From the IMG/VR virus record IMGVR_UViG_3300031669_000016, positions 1 through 64,000 of that record: a DNA stretch of 64,000 nt; one strand, 5' to 3'. Shown piece after piece: positions 6,104 through 46,739 of the stretch; positions within the stretch are counted from its first letter, which is position 1, and each line of letters starts with the position of its first letter. The position numbers and the translations under genes were made by a program. Source of the DNA: a virus. The notes under the pieces are model-generated. The model was not told the origin of the DNA, ran no database searches, and saw only the letters and a program-made list of their open reading frames with translations.

Positions 6104-6202
6104 ATGCCATCTTTAGCCTCAAAAGACACCTCCGGCACCTTCCTCGCTGCTGAGGGTGAGACCGAGGTCATAGAGGGGCGTGCCTGGGAAACCAAGGAGC
6201 GG
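6104..6202 (+). pseudogene. Truncated duplicate of the 5' end of the downstream repeat-protein gene
   Basis: From ATG 6104 the frame reads MPSLASKDTSGTF then ...RLVF. This is clearly related to the start of the intact gene at 6820 (MSSLAQRDTSGTF ... FKVF). Homology fades where the antisense HNH cassette begins at about 6203; beyond that the frame continues only as a shadow of the HNH gene. The copy is diverged rather than identical, so it looks like a donor-derived flank of the inserted HNH element, not a recent tandem duplication. Confidence 0.6.
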
Positions 6203-6745
6203 TTAGTGTTCGGTTTTGCGAATGGCGTATCGCTTGCGGGCCGTCGCGTTCCTGCATTGTTTGCACTGGGACGTGAGGGCATCGTGGGTCTGGCCGCTCC
6301 TGCCAAATTGATCCCGAGGAAGAATCTGGCGGCATTTGTTGCATTGGGCATCGCTGTCAGAGATGTACCTATCGGACACCCGGTGAGTTCGCATATGCTC
6401 CCCCTGGCTCCGAAGGAGAACGAGGTTACCCAATGTGTTGTTGAGCCTGTTCCCGTCCCTATGGTGGACTGTTTCTCCGGGGGCCAGATCCCTTCCAAGA
6501 TGTTGCGCCATGAGCCACCGGTGTTCCTTCATTTAGATACCATCGACGAAGATACATCGGTAGCCCTGGGCGTTGACATAGCCACCTTTCCACCGGTGGT
6601 TGTTCGGTCCCCTCTCGGAAAGGCCGAAACACCGCTTGCCACAAAAGCGAGAGGTCTTCGCGATGGTGCGGAGCGGATGATATGCAACACCACACTGGGC
6701 ACAGATACGTATCGTGTTGACGAGGCGACGAGTTCTCTTTTCCAT
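6203..6745 (-). pseudogene. HNH endonuclease interrupted by an in-frame stop
   Basis: Two collinear open pieces in the same frame form one HNH protein. The upstream piece carries a zinc-finger-like start (CAQCG...CGKRC) and RWKGGYVNAQGYRCIFVDGI. It is followed by TAA (6535-6533) and at once by ATG (6532), which opens the remainder MKEHRWLMAQHLGR with HHRDGNRLNNTLGNL, the HNH core, and a C-terminal CNKC...CKQC zinc pair. Related phage HNH proteins run through this junction without a break, so the gene is either split by a nonsense mutation or made as two polypeptides. It lies antisense to virion genes, as is common for homing endonucleases. The start is taken at ATG 6745, at the expected transcript start. 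Confidence 0.7.
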
Positions 6746-6751
6746 AGGCAT

Positions 6752-6819: not shown

Positions 6820-9708
6820 ATGTCCTCTCTAGCCCAGCGCGATACAAGCGGCACATTCACTCAGAACGTCGTTCTTGGTGAGGGGCCGGAAGCCATAACG
6901 CGGAGGACGCGGGCATTCAAGGTCTTCCCGCTTCCCGACGCCCCCGACGGCCGAAAGAGATTCAGGGTTGGCGGAAGCGTCGGCCCCATCCACTACCGCC
7001 TGAACCCCTTCTCTGCGGTCGAGCAGTACAAGGAGATCGACCTGACTATCGGCGCGGGGCGTGGGTGCGACCTGGAGATGATGGCGAACGGCTACCAGAT
7101 CCAGTGTTGGCACAGCCGGCCGAACGCGGTCAGCGCGGAAGAGCCGCTGTATGTGATGCGGTTCCTGAGGGCGGGGCACTGGGTGGAAGTCTCCCCCATC
7201 GCGCTGTACTACCAGAACGACCTCGGGCAGCGGCAGGCTGTGGGCGCGCTGAAGGGTGGCGTCAAGGCCGCGGTTGACAATGACGCCTACTCGGTGCGAT
7301 ATGCGGACGCGTTCGGGCCGGGCCTGAGCCTGCGCTATCAGCTCGTGCCCGACGAGTTCTACCCCGTCGTGGAGATAGCATCGGCGGCCGCGCTGCCAGC
7401 ACCCACGATAGACCCGCACGGCCTGCGCCTGGTCAAACTCTTCTCCATTCGCTGGGATACGGACACTGACCCCGTGGCGCTCACGCACGCGGACAAGCTG
7501 AATCCGGGCGAGCTCACCCTCGACAAGAGCAAGTTCGACAGTGCGGTGAAGGTCGAGCAGACCACCGCCTTCCCGGCTGAGGCGGTGGTGGATGTCGCCG
7601 CGAGGACAGAGCGCAGGCAGGCCTGGTGGTGGAAGCCGCCTCGGTGCTGGGATTCCTCGGAAGAAGTGCAGGACGTCCCCACCAAGTGGGAGTGGGCGGA
7701 GAATCAGGGACAGTTCGCAGTAGCGGTGAGCGTGGCGGTCGCTGACCTGGACCATGTCATCTACCCGGTATATCTTGATACGACGCCTATTGGCGAGGAG
7801 CAGGTGGGGGCACAAACAGATGATGCGGGGGCGTACGGCTCCACTTATCCGGGCACGAGTACGCTTCTCTCCCTTACCCAGTCGTACCTCTATTTTGGTG
7901 CCGGCACATCCACCTTCTACATGTTTGGGGCCCGGTTTACGACAATACCCATACCCAAGGACGCGACGATAGACTCGGCGTCGCTCTCCTTGCGCTCATA
8001 CACAAACTCCAGCGTGCAACTCGATATTACCATCGCCGCCGAAGCGGCCGACAGCGCCGTGACCTTCGATACCGTGCCAACGCACAGCGTCGTCACCGCG
8101 TACAATGCGAAGGGGGCACAGTCGGCGCAATGGGATGTCGGAACTGCCGCATGGGTTACAGATGGCTGGTATCAAAGCTCAGATATCGCCGCCGTAATAG
8201 AGGAGGTGACGGATCGGGCCGGCTGGAGTTCCGGGAATGATTTGGCGTTGATCGTATACAACACCTCATCGGATCGGCCTGGCTCCTCTGAGTATCGACG
8301 GTGCCACTCCTATGATCAGAGCGGCAACGTCTCCGGCCCTAAGTTCAATGCGAGCTACACGGAGGGGGGAGGGGCTGACGTCACAGTTTTTCCTGCCGCG
8401 CTGACTCTGACTGCCGCGGTACAGGGACCCATCCCGGTTATCACATCCTCGCCCTCGGCACTGGCCTTGACGGCCGCGCTGCCAACCCCCGAGCCGGTCG
8501 TGACCTCCACGCCCGCGGCACTCGCGCTCACCGCCGCTGTCCTGGCACCCACGGAGACCGGCACTGCCGTTGTCGAGCCATCAACGCTGGCCTTGGTGGC
8601 GGCGCTCCTCGCACCCGAGCCGACTGTTATCAGCACTCCTTCTCCGCTCGCTATATCTGCGGCGTTGGGCGCGCCTGAACCGATCATAACCATGATGCCG
8701 TCCGTACTGGCGCTGACGGCGGCGGTAGAAGCACCGGGGGTCATCGCGGGCGCGATAGTGGAACCAGCAGCAGTCCCCTTGACTGCGGCACTCCTCACAC
8801 CCGAACCAGTAGTGACGATGACTCCTGCGGCGCTGGCTCTGTCTATTGCAGTAGAGGCCCCGGAACCAACCATCATAGCCACGCCGGGCGCGCTCAGTTT
8901 GAATGCTGCCCTGGAAGCAGCCGAGCCAGTGGTCGTCACTACACCGGCCGCCCTGGTCCTGACGGGCGCGGTCGAGACACCGACCACGATAGCGGGCGCG
9001 GTTGTGGAACCGTCAGTGGTATCTCTTACCGCCACGGTCCTTGCGCCAGAACCCACCATCATCACGAGCCCAGCCTCCCTGGCCCTGACGCTCGCCCTCC
9101 TCGATCCTGAGGCGACAGTGGTGGTGACGCCTGCTGCCCTCGCGCTTGCACTCGGCATAGAGGCACCAGTACCAGTCATCATCGCCTCTGCCACGGCACT
9201 TGCCCTGACGCTTGGTCTGCCCGTGCCAGTGATCATCGCGACTACCATTGGGGATGTGATTGTGCTACCGGCGGCCCTCGCGATGACCTTGGGCCTTCTC
9301 GTCCCTGATCCACAGGTAAGTGTGCAACCCAATGCGTTGGCACTGACGGCCACACTCGAAGCTCCCGTTCCTACCATCATCATCGCGCCCGACGCGCTCG
9401 CCCTCGTTCTCAACCTGGAGACGCCAGTCGTGACTGCCGGCGCGGTTGTTCTGCCAGCCACTCTGGCGTTGACGCTGGGCCTACAGACGCCGGCATATGC
9501 GGTGATAGTGACTCCGGTGGCACTCTCGCTCACCGCAACCGTGGAGAGTCCTACGGTGACGGCCACCGCCATCGTCCTGCCAGTGGCCTTGGCATTGAGT
9601 CTTGGACTGCCATCGCCTGTCGTAGTTGTCGTCTCATCTGAATTGATGCGCCAACGTAGAACGTTGCGAATTACGGGGTCGAGGATCGGTACGAGGCAGA
9701 TACTATGA
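6820..9708 (+). CDS. Large virion-associated protein with ~20 tandem 20-22-residue repeats
   Basis: A 962-residue protein (ATG 6820 after GGGGGAACC; the frame also opens at 6784). Residues 1-330 form a unique globular part. Residues about 330-520 include SSDIAAVIEEVTDRAGWSSG, the pattern of DNRLRE/CBM-like domains. From about 523 to 940 it consists of about 20 tandem units of 20-22 residues with consensus P-x-ALALTAAL-x-x-PEP, alternating hydrophobic strands and proline turns that suggest a beta-solenoid or fibrous stalk. A short basic tail ends the protein. Lying between capsid and neck genes, it could be a head fibre or other surface appendage. The function is inferred, with no recognised enzyme motif. 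Confidence 0.6.
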   Translation: MSSLAQRDTSGTFTQNVVLGEGPEAITRRTRAFKVFPLPDAPDGRKRFRVGGSVGPIHYRLNPFSAVEQYKEIDLTIGAGRGCDLEMMANGYQIQCWHSRPNAVSAEEPLYVMRFLRAGHWVEVSPIALYYQNDLGQRQAVGALKGGVKAAVDNDAYSVRYADAFGPGLSLRYQLVPDEFYPVVEIASAAALPAPTIDPHGLRLVKLFSIRWDTDTDPVALTHADKLNPGELTLDKSKFDSAVKVEQTTAFPAEAVVDVAARTERRQAWWWKPPRCWDSSEEVQDVPTKWEWAENQGQFAVAVSVAVADLDHVIYPVYLDTTPIGEEQVGAQTDDAGAYGSTYPGTSTLLSLTQSYLYFGAGTSTFYMFGARFTTIPIPKDATIDSASLSLRSYTNSSVQLDITIAAEAADSAVTFDTVPTHSVVTAYNAKGAQSAQWDVGTAAWVTDGWYQSSDIAAVIEEVTDRAGWSSGNDLALIVYNTSSDRPGSSEYRRCHSYDQSGNVSGPKFNASYTEGGGADVTVFPAALTLTAAVQGPIPVITSSPSALALTAALPTPEPVVTSTPAALALTAAVLAPTETGTAVVEPSTLALVAALLAPEPTVISTPSPLAISAALGAPEPIITMMPSVLALTAAVEAPGVIAGAIVEPAAVPLTAALLTPEPVVTMTPAALALSIAVEAPEPTIIATPGALSLNAALEAAEPVVVTTPAALVLTGAVETPTTIAGAVVEPSVVSLTATVLAPEPTIITSPASLALTLALLDPEATVVVTPAALALALGIEAPVPVIIASATALALTLGLPVPVIIATTIGDVIVLPAALAMTLGLLVPDPQVSVQPNALALTATLEAPVPTIIIAPDALALVLNLETPVVTAGAVVLPATLALTLGLQTPAYAVIVTPVALSLTATVESPTVTATAIVLPVALALSLGLPSPVVVVVSSELMRQRRTLRITGSRIGTRQIL

Positions 9709-19764: not shown

Positions 19765-19924
19765 AATAGACTGGGTGTCTTTGTTTGGGGGCCATGTGAT
19801 ACCGCGCTACGATCTCTGGCAGGCTTTGGAGGAAATGGTCTACGGTCATTGCATCGCGGTTGAAGACAACCCAGCAATCGCTGATTATCTGAAGCGACAC
19901 CGCGCCAGACTCCGAGACATTTGA
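19490..19924 (+). CDS. Tail assembly chaperone T-like extension (frameshift product)
   Basis: The coherent frame from about 19490 encodes FVQALCDIARKQGQVPGWEG ... WISLFGGHV-like sequence and ends KRHRARLRDI at 19924. The frame is also open upstream to ATG 19427, but that start has no ribosome site. As in lambda gpGT, it would be made as an extension of the 18565 product and recruit tube subunits to the tape measure. Its TGA overlaps the following ATG (TGATG). Confidence 0.55.
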   Translation, partial: FVQALCDIARKQGQVPGWEGTSLLQIPANTMYLARRAWFWVDAKEALRQTTSLGHPRPPKWIISDYLTQFLDLVQRLPHPEEVGEYKTSAREIDWVSLFGGHVIPRYDLWQALEEMVYGHCIAVEDNPAIADYLKRHRARLRDI

Positions 19925-20691
19925 TGACTAAAAGAGATCCGGCCAAAAAGAAAGAGTATGATCAGCAATACTGCCTCCAGAATCAGGAGGCCATCCGTGC
20001 GAGGCATAAGGCATACTATGAAGCAAATCGAGATGCCATCGTCGTGAGACAGAAGGCATACTACGAGACAAACCGGGAGAATCTTCTGATACAAAGTCGG
20101 CAGTATCGTGAAGAGCACCGCGCTGAGTTGGGGATACAAGAGGCCATCTACCGTGAGAAGAATCGAGAAGCACTCCGTATAACAGCAAAAGCTTATCGGA
20201 GGGCGAATCCAGAAAAGGTGAAGGCGAAGAATGCTGCTTATTATCAGAAGAATCGAGATGCCCTTCGCGCGAAGCGGAAGATATATCGGGAGGCGAATCG
20301 GGAGGAACGCTGTATCGCGGCGAAGCGGTGGCAAGAGAACAACCCCGACAAATACGCAGCGATTCACCAAAGAAGCGAGCACCGCCGACGCGCCCGGCTT
20401 GCCAATGTTTCGGGTGAGTACACCCAAGAGCAGTGGTATCAAATACTTACTCGGTATGGTATGGCCTGTGCCAAGTGTGGGCGGTCTCTTACGCGACGCT
20501 CTGCAACTGTAGATCACTTCGTTCCAATTGTTGCTGGTGGTCCGAACTGCGCCGAGAACTTGCAACCGTTATGTAAATCATGTAACAGTCGTAAGCATAC
20601 TCGAATACCCACGTTTGAGGAACAGTTAGCATTCATCGCACGTCGCAAGGCACTAGGCCTTCCAGCCGCCTTGATCGCGGAGGTGCTCTAA
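19924..20691 (+). CDS. HNH endonuclease with eight helical 15-residue repeats
   Basis: A 255-residue protein. The N-terminal ~150 residues consist of about eight 15-residue repeats with consensus YYEANRDA-x7, a basic helical array that probably tracks DNA. The C-terminal HNH domain has CAKCG...ATVDHFVPIVAGG...NLQPLCKSCNSRK, with the zinc cysteines and the DH catalytic pair. It sits between chaperone and tape-measure genes in the same orientation. It is probably a free-standing homing endonuclease, paralogous to the next gene. Confidence 0.85.
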   Translation: MTKRDPAKKKEYDQQYCLQNQEAIRARHKAYYEANRDAIVVRQKAYYETNRENLLIQSRQYREEHRAELGIQEAIYREKNREALRITAKAYRRANPEKVKAKNAAYYQKNRDALRAKRKIYREANREERCIAAKRWQENNPDKYAAIHQRSEHRRRARLANVSGEYTQEQWYQILTRYGMACAKCGRSLTRRSATVDHFVPIVAGGPNCAENLQPLCKSCNSRKHTRIPTFEEQLAFIARRKALGLPAALIAEVL

Positions 20692-20692
20692 G

Positions 20693-21178
20693 ATGCCACT
20701 CAAAGATCCTGTCAAGCGAAAGGAATATCGACGGCAATGGCGCCTCCAGACCCGGGATGCCCGTCACGCGACAGAGAAAGTATGGCGGGAAGCGAACCGG
20801 GATGCCTGTCGCGCGAAAAAGAAAGTGTGGCAGGCAGCGAACCGGGATGCCCGTCGAAGGGGTGCACAGCGGAGGCGCGCTTGTATTACCAATGTTCCGG
20901 GTGAATACACCAAAGATGAATGGCAGGATGTGCTTGTCCGATACGGCATGACTTGTGCTATATGCGGACATCCCTTTACAGCGCGGTCCGCGACAGTAGA
21001 CCACTTTGTTCCTCTGAGTGCGGGTGGTCCTGCCTTTATTAGTAATATTCAACCCCTGTGTAAATCATGCAACAGTCGCAAGGGTAGTCGGATACCTACG
21101 TTTGAGGAACAACTCGCATTCATCGCTCATCGAAAGACGCTAGGCCTTCCAGCCGCTTTGGTCGCGGAGGTGCTCTAA
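20693..21178 (+). CDS. HNH endonuclease, shorter paralogue of the preceding gene
   Basis: A 161-residue protein with the same N-terminal DPVKRKEYRRQW start and only about two of the 15-residue repeats, then CAICG...ATVDHFVPLSAGG...NIQPLCKSCNSRK and an almost identical C-terminus (LGLPAAL-x-AEVL). ATG 20693 follows GGAGGTGCTCTAAG, the same junction that precedes the tape measure. It probably arose by duplication of the upstream gene with loss of repeats. Confidence 0.85.
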   Translation: MPLKDPVKRKEYRRQWRLQTRDARHATEKVWREANRDACRAKKKVWQAANRDARRRGAQRRRACITNVPGEYTKDEWQDVLVRYGMTCAICGHPFTARSATVDHFVPLSAGGPAFISNIQPLCKSCNSRKGSRIPTFEEQLAFIAHRKTLGLPAALVAEVL

Positions 21179-21179
21179 G

Positions 21180-24100
21180 CTGCCAAGCGCTCAATATTCC
21201 TATTTGCTCGGAATAGGCTTGGACCCGGTCACCGTCCAAAGGCTGCAGGCACAGCTAATCCAGCTCGCCCAGCAGGCCTCGAAAGTCGGTACGGCCCAGG
21301 CGCGTACCACTGTGGGTGTCACCCCACAGCAAACCACCGCAACCCAACGCGCCACACGTCAGGCCGCGGCTGGCTTTGCTACTACAAGTAAGCAGGCTAC
21401 GCAGGCAACCCAAGCAGTCAAAGGCTTCGGTGGCGCGATGCAAGAGGCGGGTCGCGGAATCTCTCATGCCGCGGGCAAGGTCCTTCTGTGGAGCGTGGCA
21501 ACAGGTGCGATCTACGGTTCACTGCAAGCCCTCCGCGGTGCTGTCGAGACCATCAACGACGTGGACTTCGCGTTGACTGGTTTGAGGAAGGTATACGCCG
21601 GAAACATCGCTGATCTCGGTCAGATGAAGAGGGCCGCGGTCGATATGGCGATGGCTTATGGTTCTGGAATCTCCGACGTCCTGAATGGTATGCGCGACTG
21701 GGCTCGGCAGGGCTACCGTGCTCGTGATGTAATCGAGTTGACAAGGGTTAGCTTGCTTGCCCAGAACATCGCCGAGATGGATGCTGTACAAGCAACCCGC
21801 TACTTGACGGCGGCCCTGAATCAGTTTGATCTTGAGGCCACTCAAGCAATTACTGTCCTCGACACGTGGAACGAACTAAGCAACCGCTATGCCGCAACGA
21901 CGCAGGACATCGCGGAAGGCACTGCCCGCCTCGGCCGCACCGCCCACGATGCTGGCCTCTCGATCCAAGAAGCCAGCGCGATGGTCGCCGTTCTAGTCGA
22001 GCAGACGAAGCGATCGGGCCAAGAAATCGGAACGGCGATGCGTACCGTTCTGACCTACGCCTATCGCGAGCGCAACGTCAAAGAGCTTGAGAAGATCGGC
22101 ATTTATGTTCGCCGTGAGCGGGGCGAACTGCTGGCTATGATGGACGTTTTGACGCAGCTATCTGTCAAGTGGGAGGTACTTAGCGATACCCAGCGTCAGG
22201 CCATTGCTGAAGCCTTCGGCGTGCGGCGGGTCACCGAGTTCCGGACCCTAATCCAGGGCATGCCCGCCATCCTTGAGGCGACGCGCATCGCGTATGACAG
22301 CCAAGGCTCCGCGTTGCGGGAGAACATCATCTTTCTGGATTCCCTGCAGGTCCGTTATGGGCGGTTGAAGGCCGCGCTTCAAGCACTCGCGGTCGGAACG
22401 GAAACGCAGGATACGTTGAAGAGCATTGTCAGCGTACTCACCAGCCTCGTTACCGTTGTCGATAAGGTTGGCATCAAGACCATCTTCGCTGCGGGCGCTC
22501 TGGTTCTGATCACGCGCTACACCCAAGCCTACTCGGCCGCGCTGATTACGTTCCATACCCAAATGGTTTTGGGCACACAAGCAGTAGCGGCAGGTACGGT
22601 GACAATGGCGGCATGGCAACTCCAGGTCAATGCTGCAACACTTGCCCTGCAGCGATTCTGGGTCACACTTGGTCCTGTTGGTTGGGCCGTGGCCGCTGTT
22701 GGTGTTGCTTTCGGGACTTGGAAGGCCATTGATGCTTATGTTTATCGCCATGAGCGTGCGGCACGTGGACTGGAGCGACAGGCCGAGGACATTGAGCAAA
22801 CAACCCTGGAGGCGCTTCGCCGCGAAGAAGCTGGCTACCGCGCCCAGGTCGACGCGTTGACGCGGCGTGCCGAACTGATCCAATCCTTACGTGATCAGTA
22901 CGAAGCGGTTGGAAAGAGTACTGATAAGGCCGCGGACAAGCAAAAGCAGATGGCGAAGATCCTCGAACTGCTTCAAGCCGCAACGGGTGATGCCAGCTTA
23001 GCTTTACGCGACGGCTTAGCTCCCGCATTTGGCATCGTCGAGCGCGCCGCACAGAGCGCTCTTATCGGCATTACCGATGCGATGGACAAGATGCGGGCCA
23101 GTATTGCCCAAACACTGCGGGGACAAATCCAGGGTATTAGGGGCGATATCGAACTGCGCAGAGATGCCGTCGATAACTTTGCGAAGGCCGCGGAGAGAGA
23201 ACGCAAGACGGTCCTTGGCATGTTCGACACTATTGCTAAGGGGCAGAAGCTGTATGTTGACCCCTTTGCCGGTGTGGATCGAAAAGATGCCGAGGCTGTG
23301 TTGTCTCGGACACATGAGATGAAGGATCTGTCCGGCCTGCAGACCGGTGTTACCAACAGGCTCAGCAATGCGGTGGGTGAGTACAACGTTGCGGCGGGTC
23401 GTCGAATCGAGTTGGAGGGTACACTCAAGACCACTGAACAAGCCCTACTCGAACTCGAAATGGAACGCGCCGATCTTCCCAAAAGGATCGTATCGGATCC
23501 GGATCCGCTCGGCACTAAGAAAGCTGGTAAGAGCCTCCGCAGTTATCAGAATCAGGTCCGATCCGTTATCAATCTGGTACGCGAACTCCAACAGGCGATG
23601 CGGCGTATGGGCGCGGAAGGTCTCGGGCCGTGGTATCAAGAAATCCAACGCTTCGACCAGACTTGGGAGGATATGCAGGACCGCGCGCTGATGGCGTTGG
23701 ACCAGATCAATGAAACCTTGTCCGAAGATATCCCGGCACAGGCGCGCAAAGCCCTGCTTGGGGCACGTGACGAACTGGTCGGCGTGCTCAACACCTTCGC
23801 TACTCAATATCCCCTAGAGTTCCAGCGCGCATGGGAACGTGCACTGCATATCATCCGCGGCGGTGCTGAGGCATTACAGTTCCAGCTCCGTGAGTACCGC
23901 GAAGAGTTGGAGAAGACCCTAGCCGATTGGGTTCGGCGCGGTAAGATCACGCCCGACCAGGCAACGGAGATGCAACGGCTCGCCACGCTGACCAAGCAAT
24001 TCGAGGTCATCTCTAAGAGTGCCGATCTGCTGGAACGGCAGTACCAGTTCGAACGACAAATCACAGAACTCGAAATGGGGAAGGGTTGGGAGTTCTCGCG

Positions 24101-35594: not shown

Positions 35595-36581
35595 TCATAA
35601 CGCTTTCTGATAGGCATCGTACAGCAGTTTCCCGGCTCGCTTCCATGTAAAGTTATCTCGGATATGCCGCGCCAGCGACTCGTTGCGACGGGGCCATCGC
35701 GACATCGCCACTTCCCAAGCTGTGCGCGTCGCAACTACATGAGTCTCGGGGTAACCGGCACGTCCGTAGTGGGCGTAGTCGCCGAGGTATTCTTGTATCG
35801 CTGGAATGTCTGTGGTCACGACCTCACAACCAGTGATGCCAGCTTCGAGGTTGGTCAGACCGGGATTATCGTAGTGTGTGGGTAGGACGCTTACTGCCGC
35901 ACCGGCGAACCAGTGCATTATCTCGCTGTGAGGACGCGCGCCCATAAGATGGATCCAGGGTCGCCCCTCCGCGATCTGTTCACAACGCGCATAGACCGGA
36001 TGGCGGCAATCGCCGATGCAGTAGATTGGGAACTTCAGATCTGCGTCAACCATGGCCTGAAGGAACTTATCCTGTGCCTTCCTGTCCTCGTAGCGCGCGG
36101 CGAGGATGACATAGGGTTCGTGTGGTACGACCCCATAGTCGGGTTGTGCTAAGTACCAATCCGCGGGCGCGCCTGTCGGAATCCAGATGCTCTTCGCCTC
36201 TAACACATCGGCAGGCAGGCCGAGATCATAGGCGAGTTCGAATGGTTCGCGATGGATGTTGATGAAGAGGAAACGGGCCTGCAACGCGATCTCGGCACAG
36301 CGTTCACGTGAAATGAAAAAGATGCCAGGACTGTGGATGGTCTGGATGACCAGCGGTACACCGCGTTCCTTAGCGATCTGAGCGGCTTGATCCGCTTCTT
36401 GTAGGATGATGTTGAAGGCGTGAACCAACTGGAACTGTTCTCGCCGCCAATCGACGTCGTGACAATGGATCACTTCAACATCGGGTGGGAGATGTTGCCG
36501 TAACATCTTCCGCTGCGTCTCATCGCCGCCCTGATGCGCCCCCTTCTCGTATGGAGTGCGGTTGACGGTCAGTACCCTCAT
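35595..36581 (-). CDS. Family-4-like glycosyltransferase
   Basis: A 328-residue GT-B protein. The N-terminal domain starts MRVLTVNRTPYEKGAHQGGD; the C-terminal domain includes YVILAARYEDRKAQDKFLQA and YDNPGLTNLEAGITGCEVV, the donor-binding E-rich motif of GT4 enzymes. Its ATG overlaps the upstream phosphatase stop. A diverged copy of its first 18 codons lies beyond that phosphatase gene at 37373-37429, implying the phosphatase was inserted at the start of this gene. Confidence 0.8.
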   Translation of the reverse strand: MRVLTVNRTPYEKGAHQGGDETQRKMLRQHLPPDVEVIHCHDVDWRREQFQLVHAFNIILQEADQAAQIAKERGVPLVIQTIHSPGIFFISRERCAEIALQARFLFINIHREPFELAYDLGLPADVLEAKSIWIPTGAPADWYLAQPDYGVVPHEPYVILAARYEDRKAQDKFLQAMVDADLKFPIYCIGDCRHPVYARCEQIAEGRPWIHLMGARPHSEIMHWFAGAAVSVLPTHYDNPGLTNLEAGITGCEVVTTDIPAIQEYLGDYAHYGRAGYPETHVVATRTAWEVAMSRWPRRNESLARHIRDNFTWKRAGKLLYDAYQKAL

Positions 36582-37372
36582 ACCATTTCATCTGGCTGAT
36601 CAAAGAATAGCTCAACAGTGCCCGTTCTTGGGTTCCTACATCCAACAGTCATACCGCGCCTATCCCCAGTCGCCAGAACTACGCGCTGATACTCCATTGG
36701 ATCATTGGGTTGTCCGAATTGGCTCCGCCAATCCCAATATCGGAAGGCCACTTTTCCCGCGTCATTCAGATTTGCGTAGCTATAATCCGCTGGGACATTG
36801 CCCTCGTATAGTAGGTAGCGACTACTTTCTTTGGCCGAACACCCCGAATCGTTCATCCAGGAGGCTTTTAGACAGCCCCCCAACTTCCGACAATAACGGC
36901 GACGGGGTACCAGTACACCGCTGAGATACGCATCGATTGAACATGTGTAGCAACGCGGAAGTTTGTCCTTGCCGATGGTGGCGGCAATCTGATATTCAAT
37001 GCCCTTCCCATAGCCAAGACACCGCAGCACAGCATATGCAAGGGATGGTGAACGTGCCCTACCAGCCATGCAATGAATCAGCAGTTTGTGTGTCTGTCCG
37101 CTCAGGGCACCCAATGCAAAGTCCAATGCCGACTCTAAGAGTTGGGGGGTCCATGGCATTCTATCATCTTCCAAGTTGATACGATGCAATCGAACGTTGT
37201 GTGTCCGCGCCCAAGAGACTTCGGCGTCTGGCCCATTCTCGTGGCATCTGTCATTGTCATGGAAGAACGCGATGATATAGGTGAATCCTTCATGGACGAG
37301 GCGTTCCATATCGCTTTGGTGGCCGATACAGCCAGAGATCGCAAGTTGCTTTGTGAGTCGGATGATGTTCAT
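36578..37372 (-). CDS. Dual-specificity protein phosphatase-like protein
   Basis: A 264-residue protein. The catalytic P-loop H100-C101-MAGRA-R107-S fits CX5R of cysteine phosphatases, preceded by LHRINLEDDRMP (general acid region, D around 70) and a C-terminal helix. Residues about 150-264 are an unassigned extension with several cysteines. It would dephosphorylate protein, RNA 5' ends or a nucleotide. It lies between the sigma factor and a glycosyltransferase, and the remnant next to it marks it as a cassette acquisition. No ribosome site stands before ATG 37372. Confidence 0.75.
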   Translation of the reverse strand: MNIIRLTKQLAISGCIGHQSDMERLVHEGFTYIIAFFHDNDRCHENGPDAEVSWARTHNVRLHRINLEDDRMPWTPQLLESALDFALGALSGQTHKLLIHCMAGRARSPSLAYAVLRCLGYGKGIEYQIAATIGKDKLPRCYTCSIDAYLSGVLVPRRRYCRKLGGCLKASWMNDSGCSAKESSRYLLYEGNVPADYSYANLNDAGKVAFRYWDWRSQFGQPNDPMEYQRVVLATGDRRGMTVGCRNPRTGTVELFFDQPDEMV

Positions 37373-37429
37373 CTAGCCTCGGTGCGCGCCTTTCTCGAAT
37401 GGTGGACGATTGATAGTCAGGACTTTCAT
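37373..37429 (-). pseudogene. Remnant of a glycosyltransferase N-terminus (18 codons)
   Basis: From ATG 37429 the frame reads MKVLTINRPPFEKGAHRG and stops at TAG 37375-37373. The intact glycosyltransferase starts MRVLTVNRTPYEKGAHQG, so 13 of 18 residues match. The remnant's ATG overlaps the sigma-factor stop (ATGA), indicating that a glycosyltransferase once followed the sigma gene directly before the phosphatase cassette came in. Confidence 0.75.
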
Positions 37430-38969: not shown

Positions 38970-39021
38970 CTTTGCATGCCTAGATCCTACCCATAATCGA
39001 AGATTTGAGGCGAAAGCTTCG

Positions 39022-39400
39022 ACCAGCATCCTCGCGCGCGTAGGAGTGACTGTGTGGTATACCATAGTAATCGTGCCCTCGCGCGCGTGGAAGTAACCAA
39101 CAGTAAGGCGGCAACGGAACCGGCGAGGTCGTCGTGCCCTCGCGCGCGTGGAGGTAACGTGTGGCGCGTTGGGTTTCTGTGGTTTGCTGGTCGTGCCCTC
39201 GCGCGCGTGGGAGTAACGGCCAATATCCTACCCATCTTAGGCAACACATCGTCGTGCCCTCGCGTGCGTGGAAATAACCGCCCTTGTTTCGTCACTGAAG
39301 GCGGTCCAACCGTCGTGCCCTCGCGCGCGAGGGAGTAACCCGGAGGCCGCCAGGAAGAGGGGGAATCCAGAGGTCGTGCCCTCGCGCGCGAGGGAGTAAC
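39022..39400 (-). CRISPR. Mini CRISPR array, six repeats plus one degenerate repeat
   Basis: Six 28-nt repeats lie at 39070-39097, 39131-39158, 39190-39217, 39251-39278, 39312-39339 and 39373-39400. Spacers are 33, 31, 33, 33 and 33 nt and share no obvious sequence. On the plus strand each repeat begins GTCGTGCCCTCGCG and ends TAAC; the two nearest the effector carry the perfect palindrome CCCTCGCGCGCGAGGG, the others vary at 2-5 positions. A degenerate repeat (39022-39050) and a short ~20-nt spacer (39051-39069) end the array distally. Decay away from the effector gene suggests leftward transcription, with the leader on the effector side. Confidence 0.93.
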
Positions 39401-39534
39401 ACTGCCATACCTATCGTCCAAACATGTTTCATCACAATCTCTACCCTCCCTGCGCGCGCCCCGGCGAGGCCGGGGATTAGGATTTGATCCGCGACCAGCC
39501 TTCTCCGGGCTGGTGGCAGGTCGGGGACCCACGA
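39401..39534 (-). ncRNA. Structured region between effector and array: leader and possible tracrRNA/omegaRNA
   Basis: This 134-nt gap holds no gene. On the minus strand it contains hairpins ACCAGCC/GGCTGGT (39514-39494) and CCCCGGC/GCCGGGG (39475-39459, 3-nt loop). Then comes an anti-repeat-like segment GCGCGCGCAGGGAGGGTAG (39459-39441) that could pair with the GTTACTCCCTCGCGCGC half of the leftward-read repeat. About 40 nt of unstructured sequence leads to the first repeat. Hairpins plus anti-repeat are what a tracrRNA of compact type V systems, or an omegaRNA scaffold of TnpB, would look like. Because the repeat core is palindromic, a decayed repeat copy cannot be excluded. Confidence 0.5.
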
Positions 39535-40899
39535 CTATTTAGCCCCCACTCTCAACGCTCCAAAGGAGCGGTGGAACCCTCGATAGCCTCCTGATGTATT
39601 CCACTCCGCCTTGCGATAAAACGCCCGCCGAGCGATGTTCACAGCAGCTGCCTCGTCGGCGTCGAAATTGACATCACAAGCCGGACAGTAGAGATCTTCA
39701 CCTTCCCGTTTGGCATCCTCCCCACACCGAGGACAAATCAACGATGAGTAAGCAGCGAAGACCTCGCGTGGTGGTAACATACCAGCCATCCGCAACTTGT
39801 AGCTGAGGATATGACCCATCTTGGCATACTGGGAACGTATAAATGCGCCGCTTGTCTGTAGGTTGAGATCTTCCATCACTACCAACGAGTGGTGCTCAAC
39901 GGCCAACGCAACCAACGCATTGGCGATTGTGTGGAGCATCTGCTCTTGGTGTCGACGCTGCCAGGCTTGACGACGCACATGCCGACCACGCCTCTGTGCG
40001 GCCTGGCGCTTCCGTCCCAATAGGATCTGTAGAGGACGCACGTCCCGACCAAGGCTCCCAACTCTGAGTGGTCGACCCTCTTTGTCTATGATTGCGTATG
40101 CCGCCTGTTTGATGATGCCGCGATCAACTCCAAGATAGGTTTCCTCTTCACCCCGCTCCATACTCTCGACTTGGAACTCGAAGCTTATATGTAGGAAGTA
40201 CTCGCCATCGCGCCGACAAAGGCAGGCACAGCGCGCCTTCCCTTTCGTGAGATATTCCTCTTCGTGCCATATCCCAAACGCGAGTGGGAAACGCAACCTT
40301 GTAGGCTTCTGTGGCTTCGGCTGCACCGGTAGTGATACCACCCACTTCTCGTTGTCGAGTCGTTCGAGAGCAAAATCTCGGGCGCGTACATAGAGAAGCG
40401 GCCTGACAATCTCGCGCTCCTCACGTAGCAGACGGGATTGCCACGCTTGGTGGTCGAATGGATCACCAACCCACTCAGCGGCCTCTGCAAGGGCCTTCTG
40501 GTACCCATCAGACTGATATCCGTACAGTGGTGAGGGGTACTGGGGTTCATCAGTTGCGTCCTCATGGTTCTTCCTATCTTCCCAGGCCTGTCGTAGTTTG
40601 CAGTACGAAACAAGGTTCGTTAGGATATCTGATACTAAGCCGTCATATAGAGCGCTTGGCAAATCCGTTGCTGATAGCAAAGGACGGATTTCCTTCATTG
40701 CATTGAAGGGGCTGGGGAGTCTCTTACCATCGTGGAGATCACGAATCCACAGATCAGCCATGGGGCGGCAGCGCTCCAATGTATCTATATAGGCCTTGCT
40801 GTAACGGGCGAATACCTGGTCTAGGAGGGCACGTTTTCCAGTACCGGGATTGTATAGTTTGAGGATGGCTGTTTTCTGTACGATGACTGTGCACCTCAT
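39535..40899 (-). CDS. Compact RuvC-family RNA-guided nuclease (TnpB/Cas12-like effector)
   Basis: A 454-residue protein. N-terminal strand CTVIVQKTAILKLYNP and helical REC-like part (residues 20-185), a second beta segment (185-245), then a RuvC nuclease: GVDRG with D259, VMEDLNL with E343, a zinc ribbon C389-PRC...C405-PAC, and FDADEAAAVNIARR with D415. All three acidic catalytic residues and all four cysteines are present, unlike dead effectors of the Cas12k/Cas12m kind. Length is between TnpB (~400) and Cas12f/Cas12n-size proteins. The gene is followed in the same direction by hairpins and a CRISPR array, favouring a type V-U-like effector over a plain IS TnpB; no transposase or element ends were seen. 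Confidence 0.85.
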   Translation of the reverse strand: MRCTVIVQKTAILKLYNPGTGKRALLDQVFARYSKAYIDTLERCRPMADLWIRDLHDGKRLPSPFNAMKEIRPLLSATDLPSALYDGLVSDILTNLVSYCKLRQAWEDRKNHEDATDEPQYPSPLYGYQSDGYQKALAEAAEWVGDPFDHQAWQSRLLREEREIVRPLLYVRARDFALERLDNEKWVVSLPVQPKPQKPTRLRFPLAFGIWHEEEYLTKGKARCACLCRRDGEYFLHISFEFQVESMERGEEETYLGVDRGIIKQAAYAIIDKEGRPLRVGSLGRDVRPLQILLGRKRQAAQRRGRHVRRQAWQRRHQEQMLHTIANALVALAVEHHSLVVMEDLNLQTSGAFIRSQYAKMGHILSYKLRMAGMLPPREVFAAYSSLICPRCGEDAKREGEDLYCPACDVNFDADEAAAVNIARRAFYRKAEWNTSGGYRGFHRSFGALRVGAK

Positions 40900-41211
40900 C
40901 TATTTCTTCATCAACCCTCGCTCTTCAAACAGTTTCTTGAGCTGGGTCCGCCACCAGCCCAACAGGCCATCCCGCAACAGCAGGGTGATGAGGCGGGCGA
41001 CAACATAGGGGTGATGCGCCGCGATCCAGATCTGGTGCTGTAAGATCGGATAGGGTTCGGTGTCGTTGCTATGGGTTGCATCGACCTGGGCGGGGATGCA
41101 AACGCAGGCGTTGCAGACCATCGATTGCTTCGACCCATCAGGCCACGTTATCATAACGGTTACATAGCCTTCTTCTTCGAGTTGAACCGCTTTGAACTGG
41201 GACTCTGTCAT
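40900..41211 (-). CDS. Hypothetical protein directly upstream of the CRISPR effector
   Basis: A 103-residue protein coupled to the SbcC C-terminal gene (ATGA overlap) and ending directly against the effector start (TAGATG). The N-terminus is beta (EEEGYVTVMITWPDGSKQSM), with one CNACVC cluster, then a helical basic C-terminus (YVVARLITLLLRDGLLGWWR). No family was recognised. Its position makes it a candidate accessory to the effector, or simply part of the recombination operon. Confidence 0.5.
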   Translation of the reverse strand: MTESQFKAVQLEEEGYVTVMITWPDGSKQSMVCNACVCIPAQVDATHSNDTEPYPILQHQIWIAAHHPYVVARLITLLLRDGLLGWWRTQLKKLFEERGLMKK

Positions 41212-41867
41212 GCCTCATCTCCCACTACACATCGGCTCGCACCATCCACCTTACTAACCCCGATGATCTGAGCGCTTGACGGTGCGGAGTGATCCTCGTT
41301 TCCGGTGACGACAACGACCTGCATGCCGAGGTCTCTGGAGACACCTTCCAAGAAGTCTTCGATGACGGCGAGCGCACGCGCGCCGTGCACGTTGCGATAG
41401 GGTTCATCCAAGATGAGGACGCGGGGCAGGCGCAGGCGCAACACGAAGACGAGGCGCAACAGCACGGATTCGACATCGAGGACACCACCGCCATGGACCT
41501 CGGTGCCCCTACCCTCGATCCCATCGGCATCGACCGTTTCTAGATGGGCCTGGACCATGTTTCTGGATTGGTCGTACCGAAGTCGGAACTGCGCACCGGG
41601 ACCGAGCAGGATACATAGTGCCTGGGTCAGGAGCGGCTCGATAATGTTCTTCAACCTATCCTGACTCAACGCGGCGGCTTGTTGAAGCAATGTTTGCGCC
41701 TTCAAGTACCAATCTGCTAGTGCTGTTTGCTCTGTGCGTGCGATTTGGTGCTGGCTTTCGGTCTGCTCAAGTAAGGCGCGGCGGCCTCGTGCCTGCTCGA
41801 CCTGGCTGCGGCACCGACTCGCCCGTTGGATCAGGGTATTGAGGTCAACGACCGACAACGGTTTCAA
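41208..41867 (-). CDS. SbcC/Rad50-like ATPase, C-terminal half
   Basis: A 219-residue protein: a coiled-coil start (residues 1-75), then LLTQALCILLGPGAQFRLRY, the ABC signature region HGGGVLDVESVLLRLVFVLR, and Walker B RVLILDEPYRNVHG with a D-loop-like continuation and VVVVTGNED in the switch position. It lacks a Walker A, which is supplied by the separate protein at 43307. Together with SbcD/Mre11 (42372) it should form a DNA-end processing complex. A split at the zinc-hook tip is the natural break point. Confidence 0.75.
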   Translation of the reverse strand: MKPLSVVDLNTLIQRASRCRSQVEQARGRRALLEQTESQHQIARTEQTALADWYLKAQTLLQQAAALSQDRLKNIIEPLLTQALCILLGPGAQFRLRYDQSRNMVQAHLETVDADGIEGRGTEVHGGGVLDVESVLLRLVFVLRLRLPRVLILDEPYRNVHGARALAVIEDFLEGVSRDLGMQVVVVTGNEDHSAPSSAQIIGVSKVDGASRCVVGDEA

Positions 41868-42096
41868 CCTCCAAGAGTTGGCGTTGGAGTTCGGCCATTT
41901 GCGTGTCGAGCACGTTCTGGGCTTGGTCGCGATGCTCTGGCAACTTGTCGAGTGCGATACCGAGGCTCTGCTGACACTCCGCGGCCTTGACGTGGTATTC
42001 AGCGTCGAGTCCTTGGATTTGAGCGGCGTACTGCGTCTGCTGAGTCTTCGCCCGCTCCAGAGCGGCTTTCTTTGCGCGATACGTGTCTACGTCCAC
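41845..42096 (-). CDS. Small coiled-coil protein of the SbcCD operon
   Basis: An 83-residue helical protein from GTG 42096 (GGGGTGATTCC upstream): YRAKKAALERAKTQQTQYAA ... DTQMAELQRQLLEVETVVGR. The open frame extends further upstream, but that part overlaps a remnant of the SbcD C-terminus and another gene. It could pair with the coiled coils of the split Rad50 halves on either side. Confidence 0.55.
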   Translation of the reverse strand: MDVDTYRAKKAALERAKTQQTQYAAQIQGLDAEYHVKAAECQQSLGIALDKLPEHRDQAQNVLDTQMAELQRQLLEVETVVGR

Positions 42097-42099
42097 GGA

Positions 42100-42139
42100 A
42101 TCACCCCGTTTGCAGCGCTTGTAATGTGAGATTCTTGAC
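42100..42139 (-). pseudogene. Remnant of a second SbcD C-terminus
   Basis: Reading leftward after the TAG of the inserted gene, codons give VKNLTLQALQTG and TGA. The real SbcD ends VVDLALQTLQMG and TGA; 28 of 39 nucleotides agree, with mostly third-position changes. This diverged duplicate end shows that the gene at 42140-42367 was inserted together with a donor-derived flank. Confidence 0.7.
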
Positions 42140-42367
42140 CTAGAACCCAAACCAGAGGGTAACAATCCTGTAGGCTCTGATTGGATCAACAGGAGAACAT
42201 AGAACCAAACAATCATCTTTCCAGTTGATCCGAACACTGTTGAAACACCCAACCCAACCGCGTCCTTCAACTTTGATTGGGTGGTCCAAATCATCTTCTG
42301 ACTTGGAGAACCTCAGATGCTCCGGATTACCATCCATATCCTGTACTTCTGCTGCTGTAAGGATCAT
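42140..42367 (-). CDS. Hypothetical protein inserted within the SbcCD operon
   Basis: A 75-residue protein whose ATG 42367 follows the SbcD stop closely, with GGGGTGAAAAG as ribosome site. It is beta-rich (VEGRGWVGCFNSVRINWKDD) without known motif. It is bounded by the true SbcD end on one side and a diverged SbcD end on the other, so it is a recent cassette. Confidence 0.5.
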   Translation of the reverse strand: MILTAAEVQDMDGNPEHLRFSKSEDDLDHPIKVEGRGWVGCFNSVRINWKDDCLVLCSPVDPIRAYRIVTLWFGF

Positions 42368-42371
42368 CTTT

Positions 42372-43310
42372 TCACCCCATTTGTAGTGTCTGCAATGCGA
42401 GATCGACGACTTCGCGTTCGACTTTGGCCTGCGCGGCCACGGTCTCTACGACTTGGACCACATCCATAGCAATGGTCTCGTCGGCCTCGATGGCTGCGAA
42501 ATGATGGAGTAAGTCGCTGAACTGATCTGCTGTATAGCCAAGTGCTTCTGTTTCGTCGACCCAAACATCCGTTTTGAACGGGGGACACATCCACTCAACC
42601 GCAAGCGTTTCTAGATCAACGACGAGAAAAGTCGGTTTCCGCGTCATATCGCTTGGCGTGCGCGTCAGCCGTGCCAACGCACCGGGATTGATCGCCTGTC
42701 CCGTTTCGGTACGCTTATAAACGCCAGGATGGTAGTCGCCCAGCAGGAGGAGGGGAATATCGGGGAGATCCTGAACGAGAACGTGGCCAAACGGTTTCGG
42801 CTTATCCACCACCATTTGGTGCGCGATCACGATGTCGGCCCGTCGTTGCCAGCCCTGAAGGGCTTCGGCGAGCTGTTCCTCGCCGCGATGACGGTAGTGC
42901 AGCGCGATAACACTACGACCCTCCAAATCGGTACGGTCCCTACCATTCCAACCGTTAGGAAGGACCCGGAAGAGGTCTCCCATCGCCTCGGCCAGAAGTC
43001 CGAGCATGCCTTCCCGGTATGTAGCGGCATTATGCCCGATGATGTCGTGTTGGCCCGGAATGACCCACCATGGAATCGCGTACTTACGGATCAAAGCGGC
43101 GAGGCGCGTCCCCACGAGCGGTGGGGTTCGGCGTGGCGTATGGGTCAGATCACCACCACAGATCACAAGCCCAATTCCATTCTGTTGACCCCAGGTTAGA
43201 ATAGCTTCGACCTTGCGGAGCACTGCGTATAAGAAGCTGTCGTTACGGCCCACAGGCGATTCGGCCTGGAGGTGGAGGTCGGTGAGGTAGATGAAGCGCT
43301 GGATGCTCAT
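42372..43310 (-). CDS. sbcD: SbcD/Mre11-like nuclease
   Basis: A 312-residue calcineurin-like phosphoesterase: TDLHL (D and H near residues 10-12), CGGDLTHTP, IPGQHDIIG (GNHD variant with Q for N), DIVIAHQ and LLGDYHPG. This series and the adjacency to Rad50-like halves identify the Mre11/SbcD nuclease that trims DNA ends. A C-terminal helical part (residues 240-312) would bind Rad50. ATG 43310 overlaps the end of the Rad50 N-half gene. Confidence 0.85.
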   Translation of the reverse strand: MSIQRFIYLTDLHLQAESPVGRNDSFLYAVLRKVEAILTWGQQNGIGLVICGGDLTHTPRRTPPLVGTRLAALIRKYAIPWWVIPGQHDIIGHNAATYREGMLGLLAEAMGDLFRVLPNGWNGRDRTDLEGRSVIALHYRHRGEEQLAEALQGWQRRADIVIAHQMVVDKPKPFGHVLVQDLPDIPLLLLGDYHPGVYKRTETGQAINPGALARLTRTPSDMTRKPTFLVVDLETLAVEWMCPPFKTDVWVDETEALGYTADQFSDLLHHFAAIEADETIAMDVVQVVETVAAQAKVEREVVDLALQTLQMG

Positions 43311-44287
43311 TGTAAGGCCTCAAATGGGCGGCCACAGAGCGGACAGGCATCTACCGCGGCAAGTTCCTGGTCTAGTGCTTGAACCTCTGCCTCAGCGCTT
43401 TGTAGCGCGTGGTGGAGCCTTGTACGACGTTGCTGCCAGCCCAGATACCATTGCAGTGTCGTTCCCATCGCTTCGAGCCGCTGCGCAGTTATTCTGACAC
43501 CCTCTAACCGTTGCGTAGTATCGTCTAGATCCAGGGCCAGTAGACGCTGGCCCACAGCCATGATTTGCTGTTTCCGCCGAGACCAGTCTGTGTACCAGTT
43601 CGTGAACTGCTCTACGGCTTGGAGCTGGCGTGTCGTATGGTTGATGAGCTGGAGCACGGCGTCAATAGACCCCATGGTGTTATCAGCGAACGAGAGCCAG
43701 TTCAGCGCTGTAAGCTGCTCTCTGGTCGCTAAGAGTTGCTTATCCAACTCCTCGACTTGATGGCGTGCCCGTAACGATTCGGTGTGGCATGTCCTGCCAG
43801 CCGCTTCCAAACGTTCCGCCTGGGTCAATATGCCGAGCTTGCGTTGGACCGCGGAGGGTGCATCGGCGAGTAGGAAGAGGGGGTCGTGCTGGAGCAGTAG
43901 GTTCACCGATTCGGGTTTGCCATCAAGTTCGACTTTGCGGAAACCGGTGGCGAGTTGGATCTCGTCAGGTACGTCCTTACCTATAGAGTCGAAGATGACG
44001 GGTTCACCTTCGGGACGTGTCAGTGTGTACCGATTCGTCTTGGTATCGCGCTCGCGGCAGACTGTGATGCCGTCTGCAAATGTGATGGTGACGGCGACAT
44101 GACTAGTGCCGTTGCGGCAGAGAGATTGCCAGTTACCATCGCCGTAGAGACACCAACGTATGGCGCGGACAACAGCAGTCTTCCCACAGTTGGTCGGACC
44201 CCTCACGATGTTGAGGCCGGGCGCGAGTGTTAGGGCCGTGTCGGCGTGGGACTGGAAGTTCTTTAGTTCGATGCTGTGGATGGGTAT
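43307..44287 (-). CDS. SbcC/Rad50-like ATPase, N-terminal half, with non-standard start
   Basis: The conserved Rad50 start IHSIELKNFQSHADTALTLA then PGLNIVRGPTNCGKT (Walker A) runs upstream of the first standard start (GTG 44206) to TAG 44290-44288, the methyltransferase stop in the same frame. Between them there is no ATG, GTG or TTG; ATA (44287-44285) or ATC (44281-44279) must start it, or the TAG is read through. A GGTGGTGAAG stretch precedes. The protein continues as coiled coil and ends CPLCGRPFEALQ, the zinc-hook CxxC, so it is exactly the N-terminal half of Rad50. Confidence 0.7.
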   Translation of the reverse strand: MPIHSIELKNFQSHADTALTLAPGLNIVRGPTNCGKTAVVRAIRWCLYGDGNWQSLCRNGTSHVAVTITFADGITVCRERDTKTNRYTLTRPEGEPVIFDSIGKDVPDEIQLATGFRKVELDGKPESVNLLLQHDPLFLLADAPSAVQRKLGILTQAERLEAAGRTCHTESLRARHQVEELDKQLLATREQLTALNWLSFADNTMGSIDAVLQLINHTTRQLQAVEQFTNWYTDWSRRKQQIMAVGQRLLALDLDDTTQRLEGVRITAQRLEAMGTTLQWYLGWQQRRTRLHHALQSAEAEVQALDQELAAVDACPLCGRPFEALQ

Positions 44288-44878: not shown

Positions 44879-45642
44879 GTCTTTCTCCCCAACTGCGATT
44901 CCAGTAGCTGTGCCGGCGAGTACTCGAACCGCGCCGATGTGATCTGTTGCGTCAACCACCGCACCGATACGTCGCGTTCGGCAGCGTAGTAGTCGGCGAA
45001 GTCTTTGTATGCTGGACAAGCCACATAGCTCGCCGCGATACCCACCGCTTCGAGCGGGTCGACAACCTTCCGCACCGAATCGATATCGAGCTTGTCGTTA
45101 TGCGCGATGTAAACAACCCGATCGGCGTAACGGACCAGTAGTGCGGCCTGCTCTTTGTGCAGTACTGATCCCATCATGGCCACACCAAAGGGTGCACCCG
45201 CATCGGCGAGGGCGAGTACGTCGAAGTAGCTTTCGACAAGGATGATCGGACAGCGCCCGAAAGTGTGTGGCCGGTGCAGATTGTTGAGCAGGGCATTCCC
45301 ATTCTCGCATAGCCCCCACAACACGAAGCGCTTGTCGAAGGGGAGATGCCAGAACTTCGGTTCTGATTCATCAAGCGCCCTGCCGGCCAATCCGACGAGT
45401 TGCCCTGATACATCGCGAATCGGGATGATCAACCGTTCAGCCAGCATGCGCCCCTCGGAGTGAAGGTTGGGTGGCATGGTTTGGGGACCAAGGCCGAACC
45501 CCCACTGCTGCCACGTCTCAAGCTGGAGTCCGCGACGGTCCAAGAACTGTCGTAGCTTAGAAGAACCGGCCGCTAGGTATGTGCAGAAGCGGCTACGGGA
45601 CTGGTGCCAGAAGTCTTGCCACGGTTCAGACAGCGGCATCAT
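44875..45642 (-). CDS. TOPRIM half of a split DnaG-type primase
   Basis: A 255-residue protein from ATG 45642 (GAGGAGGGTG upstream). RLIIPIRDVSGQLVGLAGRA and FDKRFVLWGL match the DnaG catalytic core start; TOPRIM follows with IILVESYFDVLALADAG (catalytic E) and YADRVVYIAHNDK, where the usual D-x-D reads H-x-D. It has no zinc-binding domain; that is encoded separately at 53767. It would synthesise RNA primers with the helicase at 54300. The altered acidic residue may change metal use. Confidence 0.7.
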   Translation of the reverse strand: MMPLSEPWQDFWHQSRSRFCTYLAAGSSKLRQFLDRRGLQLETWQQWGFGLGPQTMPPNLHSEGRMLAERLIIPIRDVSGQLVGLAGRALDESEPKFWHLPFDKRFVLWGLCENGNALLNNLHRPHTFGRCPIILVESYFDVLALADAGAPFGVAMMGSVLHKEQAALLVRYADRVVYIAHNDKLDIDSVRKVVDPLEAVGIAASYVACPAYKDFADYYAAERDVSVRWLTQQITSARFEYSPAQLLESQLGRKT

Positions 45643-46739
45643 AGCTTTACACCCTCCTCTGCAGCGGCGGCATACATCGCCGTGGAAGGATCGCTTTTGA
45701 CACGCCCCATTACCTCGTTGCGTATCCAATCAAGGAATGCTGGCTCGGCATCGCATCGGTCGTGGAGTGCCTGCTTCCCAACCGCTAACAACTGATCACC
45801 GCAGTAGTAGCGACCACCCGGTTTCATCTCGACGAAGTGATGCGACAGCGCCCAGTCGAATAGACTCGAACTCTCGTCCTGAATCCTGCCGTCAAAGTAG
45901 AATCGGATCTCGGGCGCGTCCTCACCGGTGCGGCGTAACGGTGGTGAAACCTTGCTCTTTACCAGTAACGCTTCAGCAACGGTACCGACGAGTATGTCGT
46001 TTTCTTGTATAGCGTCGACGCGTTGGAACATGAGTCGGACGCTTACGGCATGCCGCCATGCCCGCCCACCCGGAGTCCGTTCCAGGCCCTGTGCGGCACG
46101 CTTCAACTTTCCTGTGCGGGCTATCAATGGATTCGTATCGATCAGCTCGCGGACCTGATTGGTGACGATAACAGTCGCATTCGAGTAGTACGCCGCTTCT
46201 TGTAACGCCGGGATCTGGCGGGTCAGCACACCGGCAAGGCCGGCCACAATGCCGATATGACCCGGCAACTTGTCCGCGGTCGCATCCTCGAACTGGTGGC
46301 GCGGCTGTAAGAAGGCGAGGCTATCGATGGCGACGACATCGTACTTCTCAGCATTGAGGTCCTTCGTGATGGCCCAGAGCACATCCTCGGCTGGTCCGTT
46401 GGTCGGCCAGAGATCAAGCGCGGCACGATCCACACCGATACGGTCCATCCAGGCCTTTCCGAACTTGTCCATCAACGTGTATTCCGTGTCGATATAGGCG
46501 CAGCGCAGACCGGCGTGCTGCGCGTTCGCCACGGTATGGAGCACAACCGCGCTCTTCCCACTTGACTCGCGCCCGAAGATCTCGGTGATGCGGCCGCGGC
46601 AGATACCTCCAACCGTCAGGATGCGGTAGTCCAAGTCGAAGTTGCCGGTCGGAATGACGGCCGGTCCCTTCAACGGCTTCGGCTCGCGTTGGCGGGCGGG
46701 TGGGCCAAACGTCGTCGCTAGTTGTCCCGATTTGGTCAT
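45639..46739 (-). CDS. recA: RecA/UvsX-like recombinase
   Basis: A 366-residue protein. Walker A GRESSGKS at 56-63, AYIDTEYTL (E near 86), Walker B YDVVAIDS at 133-140, ATVIVTNQVRE (L2/NQ region) and GRAWRHAVSVRL. Length and motifs agree with bacterial RecA/phage UvsX, without the acidic bacterial C-terminus. It catalyses strand exchange with the SSB-like protein upstream and the SbcCD set downstream. ATG 46739. Confidence 0.9.
   Translation of the reverse strand: MTKSGQLATTFGPPARQREPKPLKGPAVIPTGNFDLDYRILTVGGICRGRITEIFGRESSGKSAVVLHTVANAQHAGLRCAYIDTEYTLMDKFGKAWMDRIGVDRAALDLWPTNGPAEDVLWAITKDLNAEKYDVVAIDSLAFLQPRHQFEDATADKLPGHIGIVAGLAGVLTRQIPALQEAAYYSNATVIVTNQVRELIDTNPLIARTGKLKRAAQGLERTPGGRAWRHAVSVRLMFQRVDAIQENDILVGTVAEALLVKSKVSPPLRRTGEDAPEIRFYFDGRIQDESSSLFDWALSHHFVEMKPGGRYYCGDQLLAVGKQALHDRCDAEPAFLDWIRNEVMGRVKSDPSTAMYAAAAEEGVKL

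Follow-up and report, generated by a model that had tools for sequence, protein, structure and literature searches.

Some elements insert within or next to a gene end and bring a replacement for it, the old end being left beyond the element (compare the satellites in prophage late genes, PMC10111431). In topology this is close to the locus considered here, the SbcCD operon of an uncultured phage. However, the latter shows no integrase and no att-like identity (72%), and two of the three scars of this kind are at 5' ends. For the T6SS and Rhs loci of Vibrio, with their displaced ends and orphan immunity arrays, a process was proposed in which one junction is homologous and the other illegitimate, so that old gene ends are displaced (PMC5361080). 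With these loci the operon would share a homologous junction in a conserved neighbour combined with a non-homologous junction, and old gene material moved downstream with the new gene between. At that, the operon is a phage repair operon, the insert is about 270 nt, the displaced tail is 39 nt, and there is no toxin-immunity logic.

Homology-facilitated illegitimate recombination has been described experimentally (PMC3240628). Where its frequency was measured it is very low, with a value in E. coli conjugation of 3x10^-10 per recipient, a point against the reading favoured below. The lambda Red system recombines DNA diverged by 22%, that is, phage genes of about the divergence of the copies described below (PMC2327257), but homeologous exchange has homology at both ends and produces no end duplication, and the recombinase encoded here is RecA-like. 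Finally, the free-standing homing endonucleases of T4-like phages (PMC2988022; exchange boundaries in PMC10448857) are also small genes situated between conserved replication and repair genes. Words for duplication or remnants were not found in the text of the review (PMC2988022). Unlike these genes, the insert at SbcD encodes no recognisable nuclease, although one of the other scars (scar B) does hold an HNH-like gene.

The SbcCD operon and its relatives

The window, that is, the whole stretch of DNA analysed, comprises bases 1-64,000 of a 75,174-bp IMG/VR virus record. Its minus strand carries a repair and recombination operon in the order RecA-like gene, N-terminal half of SbcC, SbcD, a 75-aa ORF, a coiled-coil gene, and C-terminal ATPase half of SbcC. 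The RecA-like recombinase is encoded at 45639-46739. The N-terminal half of SbcC (43307-44206), whose start may be further upstream, has a zinc-hook-like end and matches Pfam AAA_23 (8.6e-8) and PHROG 16465 (1.9e-30). SbcD (42372-43310) is a complete Mre11-like phosphoesterase of 312 aa with matches to Pfam Metallophos (2.2e-7) and the SbcD-like PHROG 100, and the C-terminal half of SbcC (41208-41867) matches PHROG 15167 (4.6e-17). The Metallophos and AAA_23 domains together with the PHROG matches identify the metallophosphatase subunit and the Rad50-like ATPase of an SbcCD/Mre11-Rad50 operon.

Close relatives were sought via SbcD, RecA and the C-terminal half of SbcC. These searches yielded only a 92.6-kb contig, IMGVR_UViG_3300033141_004852 (here, the relative), and two distant large phage contigs; neither a donor phage nor a close relative with an empty site was found in them. 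The relative is 48% identical in RecA, 42% in SbcD and 40% in the C-terminal half of SbcC. In it, SbcD and the coiled-coil gene share 8 nt at the SbcD stop, with nothing inserted between them. The 75-aa ORF is absent from this only usable relative, and compared with it is an insertion inside the SbcCD operon, as had been claimed in the initial annotation.

The coiled-coil gene (41845-42096, minus; 83 aa, GTG start) is a small middle piece of the split SbcC; its place and start are those of the 87-aa gene of the relative, to which it is 26% identical. An alternative start that gives 149 aa (42294) was rejected, since the start of the relative's gene aligns with the GTG at 42096. The SbcC protein is thus encoded in three genes (41208-44206, minus) with SbcD inside the split, an arrangement also found in the relative (L002), and comparable split arrangements are seen in the 193-kb phage contig L007 and in Bacillus phage vB_BboS-125. 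In L007, a 281-aa ORF precedes the small gene at a comparable position, and in vB_BboS-125 the small gene ahead of the SbcC C-terminal ATPase has a gene with an AP2 domain immediately in front of it. With 8-18% identity, the small genes are too distant for homology to be shown. Judging by these gene orders, the surroundings of the coiled-coil gene vary in other phages too.

The duplicated SbcD end and the 75-aa ORF

SbcD ends in a 39-nt segment (42372-42410, minus) of which a second version occurs at 42101-42139 on the same strand, with 28 of 39 positions identical (72%) and a period of 271 nt. This count, the duplication of the 3' end around the gene at 42140-42367, and the interval of 42100-42420 had all been given in the initial annotation, and our recount yields the same values. 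Copy 1 is the true 3' end of SbcD, including the stop and the GGGGTGA motif (GTCGTCGATCTCGCATTGCAGACACTACAAATGGGGTGA, translated as VVDLALQTLQMG and the stop). Copy 2 (GTCAAGAATCTCACATTACAAGCGCTGCAAACGGGGTGA, translated as VKNLTLQALQTG and the stop) is a diverged second version, and its GGGGTGA motif sits immediately upstream of the coiled-coil gene. The distance from the copy to the next start codon is 4 nt in both cases, AAAG-ATG for copy 1 and TTCC-GTG for copy 2. Each copy, with its stop and overlapping ribosome-binding motif, may have a role in translation of the gene that follows it. The differences are mostly transitions, 9 of 11 mismatches (binomial P ~0.001 against 1/3). The tail of copy 1, REVVDLALQ, aligns with QEVVDYALQ of the relative's SbcD, and copy 1 is closer to the relative's tail than copy 2.

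The 75-aa ORF (42140-42367, minus) fills the gap between the copies exactly: its ATG follows the SbcD stop by 4 nt, its TAG abuts copy 2, and the similarity between the copies stops at the boundary between the TAG and copy 2. The GC content of the ORF is 45.6%, compared to 57-58% in the surroundings. Its codon score is below that of the neighbours, yet the best score is in the annotated frame, and random sequence of equal composition would be open for 75 codons with probability 0.009. Taken together, the composition and the reading frame suggest that it is probably a real, foreign gene; absence from the relative, lower GC and different codon use all mark the DNA between the junctions as foreign. 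The search for relatives of the protein in viral contigs, genome contigs, phages, plasmids, Pfam, PHROGs and NCBIfam found none; two genome matches of 17-22 residues (L018, L019) were judged to be chance. The single-sequence structure model is a weakly predicted all-beta fold (pLDDT 66), with no significant Foldseek match in PDB and BFVD. No RNA element was found at the site with Rfam.

Genome-wide controls and scars at two gene starts

If such similarities were common at random gene junctions, the duplication would mean little. We compared gene ends with stop-anchored 36-mers over the whole 75,174-bp genome (295,139 comparisons). The SbcD pair scores 25/36, and the next best unrelated pairs, two in number, score 22/36. 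The sole higher score, 34/36, is produced by the 3' ends of two tandem paralogous HNH endonuclease genes (19921-21178, plus), rejected as a scar because the paralogy spans the whole genes. The 30 nt upstream of the common GGGGTGA match at 20/30, the single best among 150,288 genome positions; hence convergence of the motif is not the explanation. Unanchored block-shuffles yield, per window, about 0.17 matches of at least 28/39 at distances of up to 2.5 kb. The anchored search within 3 kb was also applied to other phages, about 349 kb in all, and found no pair with 25/36 or more (the highest score was 24), whereas in this genome it found two non-paralogous pairs at that level. The control set is modest in size and consists mostly of unrelated phages: Pseudomonas, Bacillus and Brevundimonas phages, a spring metagenome phage, T4 (50 kb), the relative, and a piece of the 193-kb contig. 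The end duplication in SbcD is confirmed as real, beyond chance and beyond the shared motif.

The initial annotation had counted three such cases in the window, and the genome scan for diverged duplications of gene ends located the other two, at 36.5-37.4 kb and 6.1-6.8 kb, both at gene starts. The copies at all three scars are diverged by 26-36%.

Scar A involves the glycosyltransferase gene at 35595-36581 (minus). The true 5' end (36535-36581; MRVLTVNRTPYEKGAHQGG) is separated from a stranded copy of it (37383-37429, minus; MKVLTINRPPFEKGAHRG and a stop; 35/47 nt identical) by an inserted phosphatase-like gene (36578-37372, minus; 264 aa, GC 51.6%), whose DSPc match (6.1e-5) is below the curated cut-off. 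On both sides the stop overlaps the ATG as ATGA. The relative has no phosphatase before its glycosyltransferase. Scar A is also present in another assembly, where the same phage is represented by a second contig; the 8.3 kb that were compared are 99.99% identical. This contig ends at 40899, short of the SbcD site, and the SbcD scar (the 42-kb site) is present in one assembly.

The second contig, IMGVR_UViG_3300031673_016576 (56.6 kb, G002), ends exactly at the start codon of a TnpB-like gene, possibly because the site is variable or the assembly broke there. The gene belongs to a locus at 38987-40899 (minus) with a CRISPR-like array (39063-39400) of at least six copies of an approximately 30-nt repeat spaced by 59-61 nt; beside it is encoded a 454-aa TnpB/Cas12f-like protein (Pfam Cas12f1-like_TNB, 3.7e-10). 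The array and the gene possibly form a phage-borne miniature type V system. The stretch between repeats at 39157-39189 matches positions 21327-21359 in the phage's own long tape-measure-like gene at 31/33 bases, as if it were a spacer against a related phage. Positions 445-606 of G002 match 39373-39556 at 84%.

Scar B precedes a virion-region gene that runs to 9708. A stranded copy of its 5' end (6104-6142, plus; MPSLASKDTSGTF) and the true 5' end (6820-6858, plus; MSSLAQRDTSGTF) flank an inserted antisense gene (6203-6751, minus) with one in-frame stop, identified by eye as HNH-endonuclease-like from conserved residues. The nucleotide score, 22/36, is within the whole-genome background, and the case relies on the protein level (10/13 residues) and the position. 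Thus two of the three proposed scars stand out by nucleotide statistics, while the 6.1-kb one is weaker and mainly a protein-level case. Within the virion-region gene itself (6820-9708, plus), a Pro/Ala-Leu-Thr motif is repeated many times in diverged form.

Origin of the second copy and the route of insertion

We simulated neutral divergence and compared the number of residues kept with that expected if one copy were a dead duplicate drifting. Amino acids are kept beyond the neutral level in the glycosyltransferase case (P 0.003-0.011) and in the 6.1-kb case (P 0.0005 or less), whereas the SbcD case is within neutral drift (P 0.15-0.30). Pooled over the three scars, 27 residues are kept against an expected mean of 17.4 (0 of 4000 simulations). 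Since the copies at both 5'-end scars diverged as constrained coding sequence, a related donor phage is indicated for them, and it looks as though at each of them two alleles had come together after diverging in different lineages of phage. The initial description of the scars as donor-derived is therefore supported for these two cases and not for SbcD considered alone.

With moderate confidence, we consider the SbcD locus to be an insertion of an accessory gene with a displaced gene end, in which one junction would be homologous, between diverged genes, and the other illegitimate. The first alternative, which we think unlikely, is local duplication: the 39-nt end of SbcD would have been duplicated on the spot during capture of the 75-aa gene, by staggered-break repair, replication slippage or target-site duplication, and copy 2 would have drifted to 72% while keeping the ribosome-binding motif. 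The repeat of exact tail length on both sides of the insert, conservation of the SbcD tails that does not exceed neutral drift, and the position of copy 1 nearer to the relative's tail agree with it. On the other hand, all three scars are diverged to a similar degree, the copies at the sister scars do not look like dead copies, and the site has no transposon or integrase signature. In particular, a transposon with target-site duplication was rejected, as the identity of the repeats is only 72%, the insert is not flanked by inverted repeats, and the ORF has no transposase match in Pfam and PHROGs; nor does a 271-nt element with a single ORF and flanks matching at 28/39 fit integrase-mediated insertion at a gene 3' end. 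By analogy with the sister scars, a donor allele is preferred to local duplication for SbcD as well.

Still less probable, in our opinion, is transfer of the homing type, when a nearby nuclease would have cut the recipient, the 75-aa gene would have entered by co-conversion with donor flanks, and the scar would be an end of the conversion tract that was repaired wrongly. The T4 homing endonucleases are known to co-convert flanking sequence (PMC2988022), scar B contains an HNH-like gene, the tandem HNH genes are situated at 19.9-21.2 kb, and the AP2-domain gene mentioned above lies in the split operon of vB_BboS-125. However, neither the 75-aa protein nor the phosphatase has a match among nuclease families, and the only nuclease gene adjoining the SbcD scar is SbcD itself. 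The 75-aa gene as a free-standing homing endonuclease was also considered and rejected, with no match in Pfam, PHROGs or NCBIfam. Finally, it is highly improbable that a common Shine-Dalgarno/stop motif at an equal distance from the next start was joined by random similarity, since, while GGGGTGA is common to both copies and such stop-overlapping motifs occur at other junctions of the phage, the match upstream of the motif has no equal in the genome and other unrelated gene ends do not exceed 22/36 here or reach 25/36 in the controls.

Under the favoured reading, an insertion with a displaced gene end, SbcD would have originally been situated directly before the small coiled-coil gene. During co-infection, DNA of a related diverged phage, containing the SbcD 3' end and the 75-aa gene, would have recombined in, with a crossover on one side through homology between the diverged SbcD genes, while on the other side the end of the incoming gene would have been attached illegitimately some 39 nt short of the resident SbcD stop. 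The incoming tail would then terminate SbcD, and the old tail would be stranded downstream of the 75-aa gene. It could have been kept for the ribosome-binding motif and spacing that it provides to the coiled-coil gene, the incoming tail serving the 75-aa gene, whatever accessory function the latter may have, in the same way. A mirrored one-sided process may have placed the phosphatase and HNH genes at the starts of their neighbours, the survivors being only those products that spare both neighbours. The SbcD and phosphatase scars preserve the overlap or spacing of the stop and the start at each of their new junctions. Among the proteins encoded by the phage are a RecA-like recombinase, SbcCD and several HNH nucleases, one of the latter within scar B; nuclease cuts may help, and no link between any nuclease and the SbcD site was found.

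The process is of a known kind, as both one-sided homologous plus illegitimate recombination and homeologous phage recombination have already been described (PMC5361080, PMC2327257, PMC3240628). The recurrent recombination mechanism suggested initially thus stands as far as the three loci are concerned, but not as a new or dedicated mechanism: across them, no scar-specific recombinase, common site or common insert was found. It is rather doubtful that short accessory genes travel as self-repairing cassettes, consisting of the gene and a replacement neighbour end with a stop and a ribosome-binding site, without a dedicated recombinase. If they did, an insertion would restore the interrupted neighbour and leave operon translation intact, and the three scars would represent a general route of gene gain in phages that leaves a readable signature.

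The individual case, a single orphan ORF in a single uncultured phage, is modest. Gain of a single gene without breaking its neighbours is usually inferred from whole-genome mosaicism, whereas diverged end duplications record a junction and the side on which homology may have acted. A systematic survey of such scars could gauge how frequently genes are gained in this way and which copy is that of the donor.
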